Positions 24,964 to 48,600 of a stretch of DNA of 64,000 bases are shown piece by piece. The stretch comes from Polytrichum commune (lineage: Eukaryota > Streptophyta > Polytrichopsida > Polytrichales > Polytrichaceae). The stretch's first letter is position 1. Each line of letters starts with the position of its first letter. Position numbers and translations under genes: made by a program. Under the pieces are notes generated by a model, which was not told the DNA's origin, ran no database searches, and worked only from the letters and a program-made list of their open reading frames with translations. Location of the stretch: positions 53,816,001 to 53,880,000 of the forward strand of contig OX485804.1 of assembly GCA_950295325.1 (NCBI GenBank), read 5' to 3'.

Positions 24964-26373
24964 CTACACTAGGCCTTCTTTTGCCAATTTATCTGCTTGT
25001 TCGTTGCCGTCAATGTTGACGTGTGCTCTTACTTTGTATAGTGTGATTGGTTGTGTCCGATTTTGAAGTAGTTGTACTATGGTGGCGAGGGTGATTTGAT
25101 CTGGGTGGCTATTATGCAGTGTGGGGTGTTTAATTTGTGTGTTAAGTAAATATAATACATTTAGACTGTCGATAAATATGTATGCGGGTTCGTTTGGGTA
25201 TAGTGTATTAATGATTATTAATATTTTATGAATGACTATCATTTCTGCTCTTAATATGTTTTGGTGTCCATGGAGTCTTTTGGATATGTTGAGGCCTTTA
25301 GGGCTATAGATACCGTACCCGGCTCTTTCTCTTCGCCATACTCCAGGGTTAATTTCTTTGGGTTTCATAAAGGAACCATCTGTGTAGTAGCTGAATTGAG
25401 GGTGAAATTTTAGTGGTAAGTTTGTTTGGTAATTTGGGAGTTGTGGGATAGGTATGTTATTGCTTGCGGGTGCGTTTGGATAGTTTGATTTAGCCCATTT
25501 TTTGCTAGGATTAACGGCAGTATTTAAGGGGGTGGGTGGTGCAGTTTGTGTATGAATTTGTAATATTTGAAGGTTATTCGCTATGTCTATGAGTTGATTC
25601 ATTTGTTCGTAGGTGCCGATGTGGTTGTTTTGGTGATGGATGCAGAATATTCGTAATGTTGATACTTCTTTCCTCGTGCTATTGAGTTCGGGAGGAATTA
25701 TAGGTTCTTCGTATATGATGGTATCTGCGGCAAAGTGGGCAATGATGTGTGTGTCCGGGAATGGGCCAGTGTATGGGTTGAAGTTGTGGTTCCAGTCATT
25801 ATCCTTTGAGATAAGTAAAGTGATTGTATTGGGGTCATTTTTTGCTGCGATACGAGCCCAGTGGATGGCTTGTTGTAAGTCTGTTGCGCTATGGGGGTGG
25901 GCATATCCAATTCCCTTCCATTTTTGGTCAAACGCGTTTCCTAAATATCCAAATATTCTATCCCTAGAGAATGGTGAGTAGAATTGGGTGAATTGTGTAG
26001 GGCATGTAATTGGGGATGAGAAGTATGAGTGGTTGATGTTAAATGATGTAATTAGGAAATCCAGTATTGGGGTTGGTATTGTATATTGGGCACGTTTAAG
26101 TGGGTCATTTTTAGGAATACGGTATTTATATCTCTGGTACAGCCAGACGATTTCGGTTTTGAATGATTGGGTAGGTGGTTCTAGGTTATGTGGGGTATTT
26201 TTAGCTTGGTGATATTGTTTCCATAACCACAGTAATCTAGTTTTTGGGATGGTAATGAGGTGCCGGCCATTGTCTTCGTATATATGAGCGACGTCAAATT
26301 GTGTTTGGATAGTGTTAGTATTTGTTTCGATGTCACTCTCTGGGTTGCATTCATTAATGGAAATATGTGCCAA
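24964..26373 (-). pseudogene. LINE RNase H domain
   Basis: This open segment continues the RT frame exactly (273 bases from the upstream stop). Its last 150 residues form an RNase H of the retroelement type: YYTDGSF (first Asp), LRAEMIVIHKIL (Glu), YIFIDSLNVL (Asp) and GNEQADKLAKEGLV (final Asp), so all four metal-binding residues are present. RNase H removes RNA from the RNA/DNA hybrid after reverse transcription. The reading stops at 24964, immediately where the inserted block begins, so the stop is probably created by the insertion. Confidence 0.85.
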
Positions 26374-28320
26374 TGGAATTATTGTGGCAGGGATAACGTA
26401 TCTAGTATCTCTATGTTGTTATGTGGAGAAGTAGACATTGATAATGTTTGAGAAGTGTTTGTATTGTCTTTTCGTATAATATTGGGTAAGTAGTGCGGTG
26501 TTGTGGCGACTAGTATTGGCGTCACAATAGGGGAATAAATCTCTTTGGGTACGGCATTTGTTGTATGTGTTATTATTTGGTGTAATCCATTGGCATAGGT
26601 ATGATGTGTCTTTTCTTTTTATCCTATTAGGATCTATGAGTTGTCGTTATTTGTGATCGAGTATTGTATGTATAGGGAATTGACGGGGGTTGTTAAGCAT
26701 GTTATTGGGAGGGGGGGTAGGTGGGGGATAGGGGGGTTCGGGGGTGTACAGGAGGGGTTGGGTGTTGAGGGAGAATGTTGTGTTTATTATAATGTAATCA
26801 TTCTTTAGGGTTCGTGGGGGGTAGTGGTGTAGGCATGGTAGGTTACATTCTTGATGGCAGGTAGGGTGACAGAATAGTTGATTCGCGATGTTTAATGCGC
26901 TCTTGATAAGTTTTGTAGGATTGGAATGATATATTTTAAAGTCGTATGGGTTCATTAATGTGGTGCCATTAGACATAATTATTTGTTCTAATTTTATTAT
27001 ATTATGCAGTAGAAGTTTTTGTAGTAGTTTAAGTGAAGTGTTGGGGTTTAGGCCTTGTAGATTTTGTGTTTCTTTCATCCATGCGGTTTCAAGTGGGGAT
27101 GGGTTTAATAGGAAGCTATCTATTGTGCTTTTTAGGTGGACTCCTGCTTCATGTTTGAGTAGGAATAACGTTCTGGTGATAGGTGATCTAACACAGTGAT
27201 GATATTTAATACGGGTTTTTTCTTTGGAGCCTCCGAATTTTGCAAATATAAATTGTGTCAAGCCGTAATAGATTTTGCCGAATCTACCTTTATCATTGAG
27301 GGTGTTTTGTAGTTGTTCTCCGATACAACGTAAGTAGGCATTTTGTAGTGAGAATGCTTCAATTCCGAATAGATCGTGTGGGAGTTGTGTGGCAATATTG
27401 GGTGTACTTTTTGGTAATCCGCATATTGTTTTATGTAGTGCTATAATCTTTTTATCAAGTTTTCTGATAGCCGGAATAGAGTATGATATTACGTAAAAGT
27501 TGTAGGCTATTCCAGCACGTATCACTGTATCTGCCATATTGATTTTTTGTTTCATGGTGGCTGGACATGCAACAAGGGCTTGACATTATTTGATAACTTT
27601 AGTTGTAATGATATTTATTTGTGTTTTCCATTTAAGTGATGGCGCAAGATTTATTCCAAGATAAGTGTATGGTTCATGTTGGTTTAGAACTGGTAGCGGT
27701 TGGTTTCTATAATTTATATTGGTAGATTGGATCAGGGCTTTGAATGTTATGGGATTCATTTTAGATTTATTAGGGCATCCCGTCACTGCACATTTCGGTA
27801 TTCCTAAGTTCATTCCTGCCCATTCGCAGAATTTGTCTAATTTGTTTAATTGTATTTGTAATGATTTTAATTTGTTAGCAATTGCTGCTAAGTCGTCCGC
27901 ATGTGCTGTGGATGAGATTTTGACTTTAGATGTTCCGAAGGTGTATCCATTATTATCATGTTGTAGCCATCTTAGGAGAGGTTCTAAAAATATTAAAAAT
28001 AAATATGGACTTAAAGTATCTCCTTGTATTGTACCTTTTTGAATGGGAATAGCTAGAGTTTTACCAAAGTATTCTCCAAGATATATAGTAGAGGATTGTG
28101 AGTATATATTTCCGATGAGGTTTATGGCGTCGGTTGGGTATCCAAGGTCTTTCATTATGGCTAAGAGTCTTGCGTGGTCAATGGAGCCGAAGGCGTTTTT
28201 AAAGTCAATGTAGAGGATATATATATCTTAGTTTGTAAGTCTAGCGTCTTCTAGTGCTGCAATGAGGAGTTGAAATTATCTGAATGTTCCTCTTTCTGCC
28301 CTGAATCCTTGTTGGCTGAG
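26374..28320 (-). pseudogene. LINE reverse transcriptase region (broken)
   Basis: The frame enters at QGFRAERGTF, passes YIDFKNAFGSIDH (catalytic Asp of RT motif A), GTIQGDTLSPYLFLIFLEP (motif B, substrate binding) and SSTAHADDLAAI (motif C, here ADD in place of the common YADD), then the thumb region. Stop codons TAA interrupt the frame near 28230-28285, at 27586-27588 (VIK*CQ), at 26644-26646 (DHK*RQ) and near 26432; the frame itself is kept across these, so they look like point mutations such as CAA to TAA. Between RT and RNase H there is a Cys/His cluster CHPTCHQECNLPCLHH that may bind zinc. The N-terminal RT motifs and any ORF1 or apurinic endonuclease are missing through truncation. Confidence 0.85.
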
Positions 28321-38267: not shown

Positions 38268-39529
38268 ACGCATAATTTGCTCGTGTGCCTTTCCCAAGAG
38301 CCTCCTAAGAGACTCGTGTATTTCACTGTCCTTGTCCTTATTCTTGTTTTCTTGGAGAAACTTGTGGCACTTGGGCATTGAGGATCTGCTCACCAGACTG
38401 GTGACTAATATTCTTGAAGACTCTCGAACGGTGCTTTTTTCAACAAAACCCATTTCACAGCAGAGTGAAAGTTTAATACTAATAATTAGTTGTAATTACT
38501 CAGCTTAACTCGGGCTGTGATTATATCTGCAAAATGGAATAGTCATACAGTATTGACATGATGGCCTATTTGGCCAATTCTATTGAAGCTATATAATTTG
38601 GGAGGACCAGAGGCCCTACAATTTTAACAAAACATCCAACTCCTAGATGTGTGTTTCTAGAAGATGGTCCCAATGTGTTCCAGCCTGTAGGATAGATGAA
38701 CCTTCGCTTATTGGCTCAAAATCTAATTCATTCTATGTGATTAAATTTTTTCTGTGTTACTACCTGTGGATTGTAGTGTACCCACCTGACAAATCCCAGA
38801 GATGCCACGCAACTGAAAGAATTAGAAACACCAAATTACAACAACCATTTTATTGCAAGCTGATATTGACTATGTAACTCAGTGACTGCATTGCGGCTGT
38901 TCTAAAAATCGGGACAACTCCAATGTCTTCCAAACATATAAACATCTACTATGGGCAGTTAAAGCAATCGCAGGACATGCCCCAAGTATATGGATAAGCT
39001 CAAAATAAGTTAATTGCATCTTTTCTACTCTCTGCATTGTCCACCTGCAGACTCCACAGATACCAACTTTGTTCCCGAGGCAATCTACACTCGGAAGCAC
39101 ATGAGCTTGACAGTACTCTCTTCAGCTTCTTTGTTTGCCTGATATTTACAGAATCACAAGTTTCAAGGAGGCCATGTTAATCCGGTTCTTGTGTTTTACA
39201 AAGGTGCTGTTCTACACCACTGATTGTGCATGTAAGTGATAAAAGTCTCAGAAATAGAATTTTGGAAACATAATTTCTTGGTCTGTCAAGGTGATTGACT
39301 TCTGAAGCAGCAACTGGCGTAGAGGCTTCGAAGAAAGCAGCTGCACACAGTATATTGTGAAACAGCCTTGTCAGTGATCAGTTGAATACTAAATTTAGTT
39401 GTGACCAACCAACATTGTCACAATAAAGGCAGTTACATCACCATATAAAGGATATGCACAAAAAGGATACACTATACTCTGCCACAAAGCCAGAAAGACA
39501 GAAAGAAGTAAGAAATAAAAATGACTCCG
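38268..39529. other. NPSN 3' flank, no further gene seen
   Basis: Probably the 3' untranslated region and intergenic sequence. Short ORFs on both strands lack motifs. Confidence 0.45.
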
Positions 39530-39879
39530 ATGCTGAGGCAACATGTTGACATGGCGTTTGCTTCAATTTTGAATTGGACCTAAGTCTATAAGTAATCCCG
39601 AAATGGGCAATACGAGGATTAGAGGATCCCTGAAGACTACTATTGCCCTTTAGAAGGTGAACACATTGAATGGGTGCGAACAAGTGGTTCCCACCTAGCC
39701 TCTAGGTTCCCACATGGTTGGTTGAAAATATATGGTTTATTTGGATACCCCTACTAGGATTTGGTGGACATAGGTGGTAGGGTGCACTGGAAATTAAGTG
39801 CTAGGAGGGTCACTCATCCGAGTACTATTCTGACCTTAGGCTGCTTAAGCTTGGAGTTCCCATGGGATTTGGGTTAAGG

Positions 39880-40122
39880 GTAAAGGGAGTGTCTCATACG
39901 AGTGTGCCTCTCATCCATCCAGCATAAAAACTTGAACTCCTATAGGTTTGTGGCCAATTCATATCAAATGGCTTGGACTAGACTAATTTGAAGTCTTTGA
40001 AGCTAATTCTGGTGTCAAATCAACTAAACCTAATAACCTCTGGGCTGCATACTATTTTATGGCTTCTTATATCGGATGAAAAGAGAGGTAAGAGGTAAGT
40101 TTGTTTGCGATATTCTTCTCCT
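39880..40122. mobile_element. Mutator-like MITE nested in the 5S SINE
   Basis: It is a diverged relative of 13199-13437: its ends contain GTGTCTCATACGAGTG.GCCTCTCATCC and the inverted AGAATATCGCAAACAAACTTACCTCT. It is flanked by GGGTTAAGG (39871-39879) and GTGTTAAGG (40123-40131), a nine-base duplication with one mismatch, as expected for a Mutator-like element. Confidence 0.65.
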
Positions 40123-40132
40123 GTGTTAAGGC

Positions 40133-40329
40133 CAATGTTTGGGGAGAACCGTCTGCTAGTCAAACCGGTTCAAAGCTTCAGGAAAGTTACAGATCATTCG
40201 TTTTAGAAGAATTTATAGAATATACCCCAATTTAATAAAGAAAAGCCGAAGGATGTCAATATGTAACCGGTTGGACTTAGAAACACTAGGATATCAACCG
40301 ATTATGCCCAAAAATATCCCTGAACACTG
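40133..40329 (-). mobile_element. hAT-like MITE nested beside the Mutator-like MITE
   Basis: A reverse-oriented module A copy of 197 bases, with ends CAATGTTTGGGGAGA and, from the other strand, CAGTGTTCAGGGATATTTTT. It is flanked by GTTAAGGC (40125-40132) and GTTAAGAC (40330-40337), an eight-base duplication with one mismatch that reuses the target left by the earlier insertion. Confidence 0.75.
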
Positions 40330-40389
40330 GTTAAGACCTTGGGTTTAAGCCACCCTTCACAGCACTACACACGCAACTTCACAACACAC

Positions 40390-45612: not shown

Positions 45613-48600
45613 CTATCTGACTTTCAATTGGCCCTTGAGCAAGTGGTAAGACTCTAACAACTGCTTAAACTTAATCTCCGCTAGTTGCTTGTTACCTTGA
45701 TTTTGGTCTGGGTGGTACTCCAGTGCTTTGGATCGAAAGGCAGCCTTTATATCAGCATCTGAATATGGTTGAGACCTTGTGGCATCTAGTCCTAGTACAT
45801 TAAAGTGATGCGCAAGCCTTGCTTGTTTGAGCAGCTCGTAGCCAGAAACATGATGTTTTCGTTCTTCGTTCCGTCTCCAGTCCTGCTCTCTCTGTGCGCG
45901 TTGCCTCTGCTCCTCCCCTTTCCATTCCCATCGATCACCCTCCCATCTCCAGTCCCACTTGTCACCGTAACGCTCCTGCCATGTATTATGTGTGTTGCCA
46001 TGCACCTTCTCTCGAGTAAACGCCTCCTTTACTCGACGAATGCGCTCCTGCAACCTCACGAGATTGCAAGTAAAAATCAATGCCACTGAGTAAAAATTGG
46101 CTTATTCAAAAGAGTTATCCTTTAATTCAGCAAGTCCTTTCTTTGGGAGTTGGTTGTTTTGGATACAAGACCTTCCAGTTTGGTAAGTTTTTGGTGCACG
46201 ATTGGTTGTGGTGTGAAGATTTGAACAAATGACATTCTATATCGGATCATTGCGGTTCAAACTCATTTTGACATGCCAAGGAGTGCTAAAATGAGTTTGA
46301 TCCTCAATGAACCAAAATAGGTTGCTCTTCATTCAAATTTAAACACTACCTCCAAGCATGCACCACAAGTAGAAAGAAATTATCAATTTTGTATCCAAAA
46401 CAACCAATGGGAGATCGTAGGGGACCAACTCATTATGAATACTCCCATTCAATTGAAGGATAACTCTAATGCCCAATGCCTGCTGTCTAGTCTGAGTGGA
46501 GCGTGAAGCTTTCAGCCTATGTCAATCACATCACCAAAGTATGGAGAGACAGTACAATTTAAGGGACAGCCTTGACCAGAATCCGTGGACCCCTTAGCAT
46601 CTCCTCTCATGGACCTCTAAAAGGGCCTCTACAATCGGCTTTTTCGGTCTTTTGAAGCAAGACCTCATGCTCCCACCTCCAAAGTCCATATATATAGGAT
46701 TGCCCACTGATAATGTCACGAGGACACCGACATCTATAGATCCATATAGGGGGCTTATGGGTGGGACATACAATGCGAACTTGCCTTCAAAGACCTAAAA
46801 AGCCAATGGTAGAGGGGCTCCATGAGTGGAGACGCCCTTAACCTCACAAATGGCATTCCCTACTCCCGCCCCCAGACTAGGTAAACAAACCTTGCACTCT
46901 CAGACTCACGTTCCAATTCCCCAAATAACTACTTCCAGCCGTTATTTCATATTTTGTGTAGAGTCCAACCCTGAAAAAGGAGAGGAGCTTTTGGTTAATG
47001 TATACTGCTGCTTGGGAGCAGCGTATGGCTATCTGGCATTGTCGACAAAATACTCATTCAAGTACATTTTCAAGCATCTCTCTTTCAGCTTTCAGAACTA
47101 AAGCCATTCTTGCTCTAAACCTCTGCTGATCATTTGTCTAGGCTGGCCAAAACCTGAAGGAAATCAGAAACATCAAATTTCATGGTTCCACTATACAATA
47201 CACATTTTGCGCTTGCTTGAGGTGTTTCACAAATTGTCACCAGTGTCTTGCCTTTGCAATGAGATAACGAGGTCAGGTTCAATGGCCCATCTACCCATGC
47301 CCATAAGAGATGGGTGATGAGTATCAGAAACTTTACCCGTCGTTGTTGCTCGTCTACTTGGGCTTGCCACTGCCGTTGAGCTTGTTGAGCTGATCTTTCC
47401 TCTTGATGGTGTGTTTGACTTCCTCCCATCCTCTGACTCCATCTTTCACCCTGGGCAGAGCTGCCATAATTGCCACGCTGCCACGAACCATTTCCCTTCC
47501 ACCCTCAGCTACACACTGTTAATTTGATGAATGCACCCAGGAACAAAACTCCACAACAACAAAGGATAAACAAACGCCTATGTTTGCCGACACTAGCATG
47601 GATTGTGAAGTCTCTTTGCCTGCAGGTTCGTGCCACCTCAATTAAGAGGTGAACTCTTCCTTACAGCTGTCAGTGGGGCAACTCCGATGGATCACCCAGA
47701 AAGAAAGAGACAACTCCGATGTTGCCACAAGCATGAATTATGATGTTGCTTCACTTTTGAGTTGGTCTAAGTCTATGTGGAACCCAGAAACGGGCATTAC
47801 AAGAACTAGAGGGCCCCTGACAACTATCACCTCCTTTCAAAGGTGAACACCTTGAACAAGCGTGGACAAGCTGGCCAACACCTATCTCCCCCAAGGGCAA
47901 GCCCTTACATTCCCACATGATTGGCTGAAAATATCTGATTCTCGCGGATACCCCCACTATCATTGGGTGGACAATAGGTGGTAGGGTGCACCAGAAATTA
48001 AGTGCTGGGGAGGTCATCCATCTGAGGACTATTCCGGCCTTAGGAGACTTAACCATGGAGTTGCTATGGGATCTGGGTTAAGACCTTGGGTTTTGTTCCT
48101 CCCCTACTAGGCTCAACAATAATATGCACCAACAACCTCTTGCTTTAGAAAACAAAAAGAAACTTTGCTTATTAATATCAATACATCACACAGGTTCAAT
48201 CATTGGTGAAATTAGAATTTGAAAATATAGGTCATTAAGAATCTTGACAGAGGAATGATGATGATTCTTTTTGTGGGTTCAGATTGATGAACAAGTTCCC
48301 AATGGAGAGAGAGAGACTTAACTACCTGTTGTGCAGATTGTTGCTCAATGTTCAATAGGCGCCTCCGAAGTGCAAAGACATTTCCAATCTACAAATGCCA
48401 ACTTTTTTGAGGTGAGTCTATTGTTGCATGTGGAAACATCCACTAATAATGTCAATCATCCAGTCAGAAGAATCTAAACAGCATCTAGCTTCATCACACG
48501 ATGGGACCAGAGTTAAGCACAGCTTCCAAGTAACAATCTCATTGCAAGCCTTCTTCCTGATAACAGAAAGAGCTCTCTCCAACAAGAACATTCCGAAACT

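Follow-up and report, generated by a model that had tools for sequence, protein, structure and literature searches.

The window, by which we mean the whole 64,000-nucleotide stretch of moss DNA analysed here, carries copies of a 5S-headed SINE of the SINE3 type, a non-autonomous non-LTR retrotransposon and not a Cassandra element. The plastid psaB of the host scores best against three photosystem I chains, 8htu, 6l35 and 7ksq (1705-1701 bits, next 1667), of which 6L35 comes from the moss Physcomitrella patens (PMC7884438), so that the plant host of the initial annotation can be narrowed to, most likely, a moss. The initial annotation had read the minus strand at 48104-47980 as tracking 5S rRNA, and we indeed find 5S-like sequence at approximately 48102-47984, from which a multi-copy element continues to approximately 47697. 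The layout of the element comprises a 5S-derived head of around 118 bp, a body of around 245 bp, a 3' hairpin and a terminal (TTTC)n-like run. The full model that we favour, and consider very likely to be correct, is of a SINE that has a 5S-type Pol III promoter and a LINE-recognised hairpin tail and was born from a joint between 5S and LINE sequences. The features discussed are located in Table 1.

Table 1. Positions in the window of the SINE copies, the sequence nested in copy 2 and the LINE of the probable partner group
Feature	Position	Strand	Remarks
Damaged LINE of probable partner group, reverse transcriptase and RNase H pieces	24969-28155	-	3' part missing here
SINE copy 2	39513-39879	-	consensus 20-401, 78% identical
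Other repeat(s) nested in copy 2 head	39880-40328	.	CTTAACC at both edges
SINE copy 2, detached head start	40329-40355	-	consensus 1-27, 96% (27 bases)
SINE copy 1, whole element	47697-48102	-	consensus 10-401 aligned at 48093-47700
Copy 1, pyrimidine (TTTC-like) terminal run	47697-47712	-	
Copy 1, 3' tail hairpin region (ATTCA...AGT)	47713-47738	-	layout like LINE 3' end
Copy 1, body	47739-47983	-	
Copy 1, 5S rRNA-derived head	47984-48102	-	box A region, intermediate element, box C, terminal GCACCC

The limits of the element were defined by comparison of copies across the genome (408 Mb, 64 contigs). Searching with the window copy gave, for the 40 scored candidates (the best of 2005), a total of 41 match rows corresponding to the window copy itself, 39 further loci and an additional piece. 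The consensus alignment contained 39 rows, namely the window copy and all but one of the 39 further loci (38), each taken with about 300 bp of flank. Across these rows conservation sets in sharply at GGGTGGCTTAAACCC and stops at GTC(TTTC)n, the flanks being conserved on neither side, and the consensus, cut where the variable pyrimidine run starts, is 401 bp in length. In window copy 1, the first nine or so bases and a target duplication were not recognisable by consensus alignment and duplication scoring, respectively. The family is large: when up to three mismatches are allowed, a 26-base core of the body matches the genome at 862 sites (448 forward and 414 reverse; reversed control, 0), so that it must number at least many hundreds. 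The element is thus short and dispersed, with many copies and fixed ends, as is typical of SINEs, and its pyrimidine (TTTC)n-like run differs in length between copies, in keeping with the simple-repeat or LINE-like 3' tails of SINEs. An 18-mer of the body matched no viral contig; it was found in 3 bacterial MAG records of the prokaryote set, which we take to be chance. The 39 aligned rows are 84-91% identical to the consensus (mean 87%) and CpG sites in the family are conserved at 0.63, against 0.89 at other sites, a decay that is the expectation for old, methylated copies. Together, these identities and the CpG decay indicate that the copies examined are old.

The relationship of the head to 5S rRNA was assessed quantitatively against host 5S copies that the Rfam 5S model had picked out in the genome, seven of which have a TATA-like box upstream. 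When one of these TATA-bearing genes, L109, was used as reference, the SINE consensus aligned from 5S position 1 with 81 of 121 columns identical and a score of 36, a figure that may be compared with a mean of -19.3, a standard deviation of 4.7 and a maximum of -2.5 for 1000 shuffles. The 5S similarity is therefore retained at the level of the family consensus, where its loss would have spoken against the origin put forward in the initial annotation. A nearly equal result (score 34, 80/124 identical) came from the L049 5S, which is the 5S of L107 and forms part of one of the 5S-LINE joints described below. Identity reaches 56/71 over 5S positions 27-97. With the positions of the 5S promoter boxes as we assume them to be, the head matches the intermediate element at 6/6 positions, box C at 15/18 and box A, whose poor preservation tells against the model, at 9/15; from this promoter-like sequence, Pol III transcription of the SINE is predicted. 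The head has kept complementary ends, GGGTG and CACCC, which would allow an outer helix to form. A 5S-derived head at the 5' end is the arrangement seen in SINE3 elements. Were the likeness to 5S a matter of chance in an otherwise unrelated repeat, this would agree with the behaviour of the Rfam 5S model, which reports nothing at its cut-off within the window and no match at E<=1 in five SINE-bearing loci. We regard such an explanation as having a negligible probability, given an alignment score some 11 standard deviations above the shuffles, co-linearity along the length of the 5S and the matches at the intermediate element and box C just mentioned. Furthermore, genome-wide the 5S model makes 42 matches, and 8 of the 37 examined are SINE copies, all of them below cut-off.

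A second copy had also been noted at 39.5-40.4 kb, and this proves to be real, lying at 39513-39879. The accompanying statement, that the two copies part exactly at the 5S start, does not hold, since copy 2 also possesses the start of the head, at 40329-40355, split off by an insertion. With this head start found beyond an insert having CTTAACC at both edges, the copies do not part at the 5S start; rather, a later insertion has broken up copy 2. The 449 bases inside the copy match other genome repeats, and the first 163 or so bases of the insert query (minus strand) have matches of 85-89% elsewhere in most of the scored rows.

The element has to be told apart from Cassandra, whose LTRs have TG...CA ends and whose insertions leave short target duplications of a fixed length, about 5 bp. 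The comparison was made on SINE loci fetched in three samples of best-scoring matches, which for that reason do not constitute a random draw; two of the three were picked by 3' end alone. Among the 78 fetched loci, with flanks of around 100-300 bp or more, not one contains a pair of copies arranged as LTRs. The single locus with a second overlapping match on the same strand, L031, represents one SINE nested in another. Neither are TG...CA ends present, the SINE instead running from GGGTGG to (TTTC)n. Target-site duplications of 7 bp or longer were considered, and were scored using mismatched flank pairs as control. A score of at least 8 was obtained for 15 of 39 copies compared to around 1.05% of 760 mismatched pairs, while a score of at least 9 was reached, with the three samples pooled, by 17 of 75 copies compared to 4 of 742 mismatched pairs; the other 58 of the 75 single copies fall below 9. 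The 17 duplications span 9-18 bp with 0-3 mismatches, and exact duplications of 8 bp occur among the 39-copy set. Their length is therefore variable, as for SINEs, and neither two LTRs with TG...CA ends nor, among the duplications of at least 7 bp that were scored, a short duplication of constant length was found.

Truncation at the 5' end is common. Judged by the best piece of each copy, 51 of 78 begin at consensus 1-5 and the remainder start later, while 75 of 78 extend to consensus position 390 or beyond, 40 of the 78 having been picked by their 3' end. In the two 3'-end-picked samples the head start is present in 8/20 and 13/20 loci. Truncation points cluster near consensus 293-317 in 6 of the 78 copies (L069, L074, L079, L084, L092 and L103), two of which share flanks. 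Four of these (L074, L079, L092 and L103) are around 92-94% identical to the consensus, above the longer copies, and clean target duplications are seen at L079 and L103. Perhaps these truncated copies constitute a short subfamily.

The competing reading, by which the copies are solo LTRs of a Cassandra-like TRIM containing a 5S region in its LTR, draws its appeal from size and content: the available text of PMC10853983 describes Cassandra LTRs as plant sequences of around 200-400 bp with 5S-like DNA, so that both the length and the 5S content of the SINE would fit. The same text names a methionine primer-binding site and a polypurine tract for Cassandra, and the moss loci, in which no LTR pair was found, offer no internal region where these would lie. 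It is nevertheless highly improbable in view of the position of the 5S at the very 5' end of the element, the GGGTGG...(TTTC)n ends, the varying duplication lengths, the frequent 5' truncation and the absence of an LTR pair from the 78 loci. On the basis of ends, duplications and absent pair we reject it for the copies examined. The preference of the initial annotation for a 5S-headed SINE over a Cassandra LTR is thus borne out by the ends, the variable duplications, the 5' truncation and the lack of an LTR pair.

A candidate for the mobilising partner of the non-autonomous SINE is a LINE group with reverse transcriptase and RNase H, represented in the window by a damaged copy. Matches between this window LINE and other LINE copies stop at 24968, where a different repeat starts. 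That repeat, at 24968-24700 on the minus strand, opens with TG at the LINE break, has many copies elsewhere that are 95-100% identical, and has the look of a young LTR-type end lying within or next to the LINE. Since the 3' part of the window LINE is cut off at this point, it was dropped as a direct 3'-end match and L107 was used for the complete LINE 3' end. With the L107 3' end as query, the other 39 scored matches are 98-99% identical (best 40 of 1712 candidates). Two LINE copies were retrieved at full length. In one, reverse transcriptase and RNase H lie together in a 1490-codon open frame; the other contains no open frame as long as 250 codons. Comparison of the LINE reverse transcriptase with solved structures gave 82 bits for R2 and 38 bits for L1-type proteins (structure entry 8c8j being taken by us as L1), scores from which no clade is assigned. 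The LINE protein, encoded at 24967-26373 on the minus strand of the window and at 2992-7461 in L133, also matches PCIF1_WW (PF12237, E approximately 2e-9), a domain unexpected in a LINE.

The 3' termini of LINE and SINE share a common organisation. The former can be written as ATTCACGCCGG-hairpin-CCGGAGTTTC(TATC)n and the latter as ATTCACGCCGG-hairpin-CGGAGTCGTC(TTTC)n, and the two ends fold alike as TTCAC-hairpin-AGT. In an end-anchored comparison with the LINE 3' end, the last 45 nt of the SINE before the pyrimidine run score 19. None of 5000 shuffles attained this value; random 50-mers did so in 3 of 5000 cases when taken from anywhere in the window, and in 3 of 10000 when taken from outside the SINE copies on both strands. 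A plain local alignment of SINE and LINE is not significant (142 of 2000 shuffles reach it), nor is the likeness upstream of the last 45 nt (371 of 2000 partial shuffles). Derivation of the SINE body from the LINE 3' UTR was accordingly rejected, the likeness being insignificant beyond those 45 nt. Because the likeness is limited to about 45 nt, and the local and upstream alignments are insignificant, we call this LINE group the probable, on sequence grounds, mobilising partner of the SINE. The LINE copies scored are young (98-99%, best 40 of 1712), in contrast to the old SINE, and an older relative might therefore be the actual partner. Movement of the SINE by some other LINE, for example one that reads the pyrimidine repeat alone, would sit well with the shortness of the likeness to the LINE tail, and Arabidopsis SINEs are described, in the available text of PMC3747384, as having no likeness to its LINE. 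We consider this unlikely since ATTCACGCCGG...CGGAGT and the same hairpin layout are common to both elements at the same place before the tail, and since LINEs of the reverse transcriptase and RNase H group are found joined to 5S in the same genome.

These joints emerged from the genome matches that passed the 5S cut-off, 29 in number, all of which were examined and classed as 7 TATA-bearing genes, 6 5S mimics (in L051, L052, L055 and L056), 6 cases of 5S followed by LINE-type 3' sequence (L107, L110, L114, L112, L117 and L121), 1 18S-like fusion and 9 other or unclear cases. In L107, a full-length 5S is joined to a LINE of the probable partner group that lacks its 5' part, and the 10-bp repeat TCGTCCCCCA flanks the whole, preceding the 5S and following the LINE tail. 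L110 and L114 have a perfect 12-bp duplication and the same flanks, and therefore represent one event, subsequently duplicated. L112 has a 14-bp duplication with 2 mismatches. For L117 and L121 the duplications are of 9 bp with one mismatch and score 6; next to ordinary 5S genes, the same script turns up repeats that are at least as good. The flanks of these two differ and the sequence after the 5S begins alike (CATCCATAAG), so that they may trace to one joint. When the last 50 nt were compared to the LINE tail, the score was reached by 0 of 1000 shuffles for each of L110, L114, L117 and L121, and by 2 of 1000 for L112, whose 50-mer includes 13 nt of 5S. Thus, the tails of L117 and L121 appear LINE-like, while the stretch between 5S and tail is only putative LINE sequence. 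Two further loci, both from the other or unclear class, were left out: L120, which has a 14-bp duplication and a hairpin tail but an insignificant likeness to the LINE tail (196/1000), and L118, which has some LINE-tail likeness (3/1000) but whose best duplication needs 4 mismatches. The sequences hence point to at least four separate joints of 5S, in sense orientation and complete or nearly complete, to LINE-type 3' ends, three of them with good duplications.

Other matches of the 5S search deserve brief description. In L111, an 18S rRNA-like fragment, which we presume to be genuinely of 18S identity, is fused to a 5S copy. L051 contains two tandem 5S-like stretches (394-503 and 576-689), lying around 180 bp apart and adjoining zinc-finger coding sequence; L052 and L055 match it over 0.7-1.0 kb at around 94-95%, and L056 over around 210 bp. 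A plant 5S mimic (P5SM) is present in TFIIIA, according to the available text of PMC8617911. The 5S-like stretches of L051, L052, L055 and L056 are probably this P5SM of TFIIIA, duplicated, the identity of the gene being one that we infer.

These observations may be combined into a proposed life cycle. RNA polymerase III would transcribe a source copy, using the internal 5S-type promoter that the head supplies, although the TTTT at consensus 172 could, by its sequence, bring about an early end of such transcription. The resulting RNA would finish in a hairpin with a pyrimidine repeat, similar to what is seen at the 3' end of the reverse transcriptase and RNase H LINE. Recognition of this end by the LINE enzyme would be followed by target-primed reverse transcription of the RNA at a nicked target site. 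The expected products of target-primed insertion are duplicated target sites and 5'-truncated copies, both of which are observed. The family itself was probably born when LINE reverse transcription became joined to 5S RNA, a step suggested by the presence of such joints at least four times in the same genome.

Animal genomes are known to carry SINE3 elements (PMC10886601 and PMC3747384, in their available text), and 5S-related SINEs have been reported in Aspergillus fumigatus (PMC5063351, likewise as available). The moss element looks like a plant example of this type, known from animals and a fungus. A search by title and abstract opening, with subscription journals thinly covered, found no report of a plant 5S SINE among the matches listed, an absence that is thereby unproved. 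As in SINE3, an unrelated body follows a 5S-derived 5' head of Pol III type, target-site duplications are present and the 3' end is, here probably, related to that of a LINE. The differences lie in the host, a moss, and in the tail, which in the moss SINE is a hairpin and pyrimidine tetranucleotide run related to the reverse transcriptase and RNase H LINE. A CR1-type tail is instead what the available part of PMC3747384 gives for the SINE3/DeuSINE pair. With the tRNA-derived SINEs of plants the element shares its short length, its dispersal and its target-site duplications, but its head is 5S and not tRNA. Plant SINEs are described as tRNA-derived in the available text of one review, a rule that a plant SINE3 breaks.

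Resemblance to Cassandra is confined to the plant host and the 5S-derived promoter region: the moss SINE has no LTR pair or TG...CA ends, its duplications are variable and its 5S is at the outer end. In their available text, PMC10886601 speculates that a SINE3 insertion gave rise to Cassandra, while PMC10853983 favours a spatial association. The moss SINE represents a concrete candidate for the type of SINE3 whose insertion was speculated to have created Cassandra. Extending this, mosses might harbour a standing source of 5S-headed SINEs, in which a reverse transcriptase and RNase H LINE whose 3' end forms a hairpin attaches sense 5S RNA of full length to its own tail again and again, one product having expanded into the family of many hundreds, and a plant SINE3 could be the proposed 5S donor to Cassandra LTRs; we put this forward tentatively, as a possibility against which the balance at present leans.

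The hairpin tail common to SINE and LINE bears on the proposal, made in the available text of PMC3747384, that stringent recognition of the 3' end was a property of the ancestral LINEs of green plants. The same source, dating from 2013, lists in that text only three SINE/LINE pairs for flowering plants. The several 5S-LINE joints, finally, would open the birth step of a SINE to study inside one genome. They are akin to the chimeric 5S/LINE-1 insertions of mammals, in that both have target duplications. In the mammalian joints, as far as the available text of PMC13174262 describes them, the 5S is typically antisense and truncated, whereas in those of the moss it is sense and complete, or nearly so.
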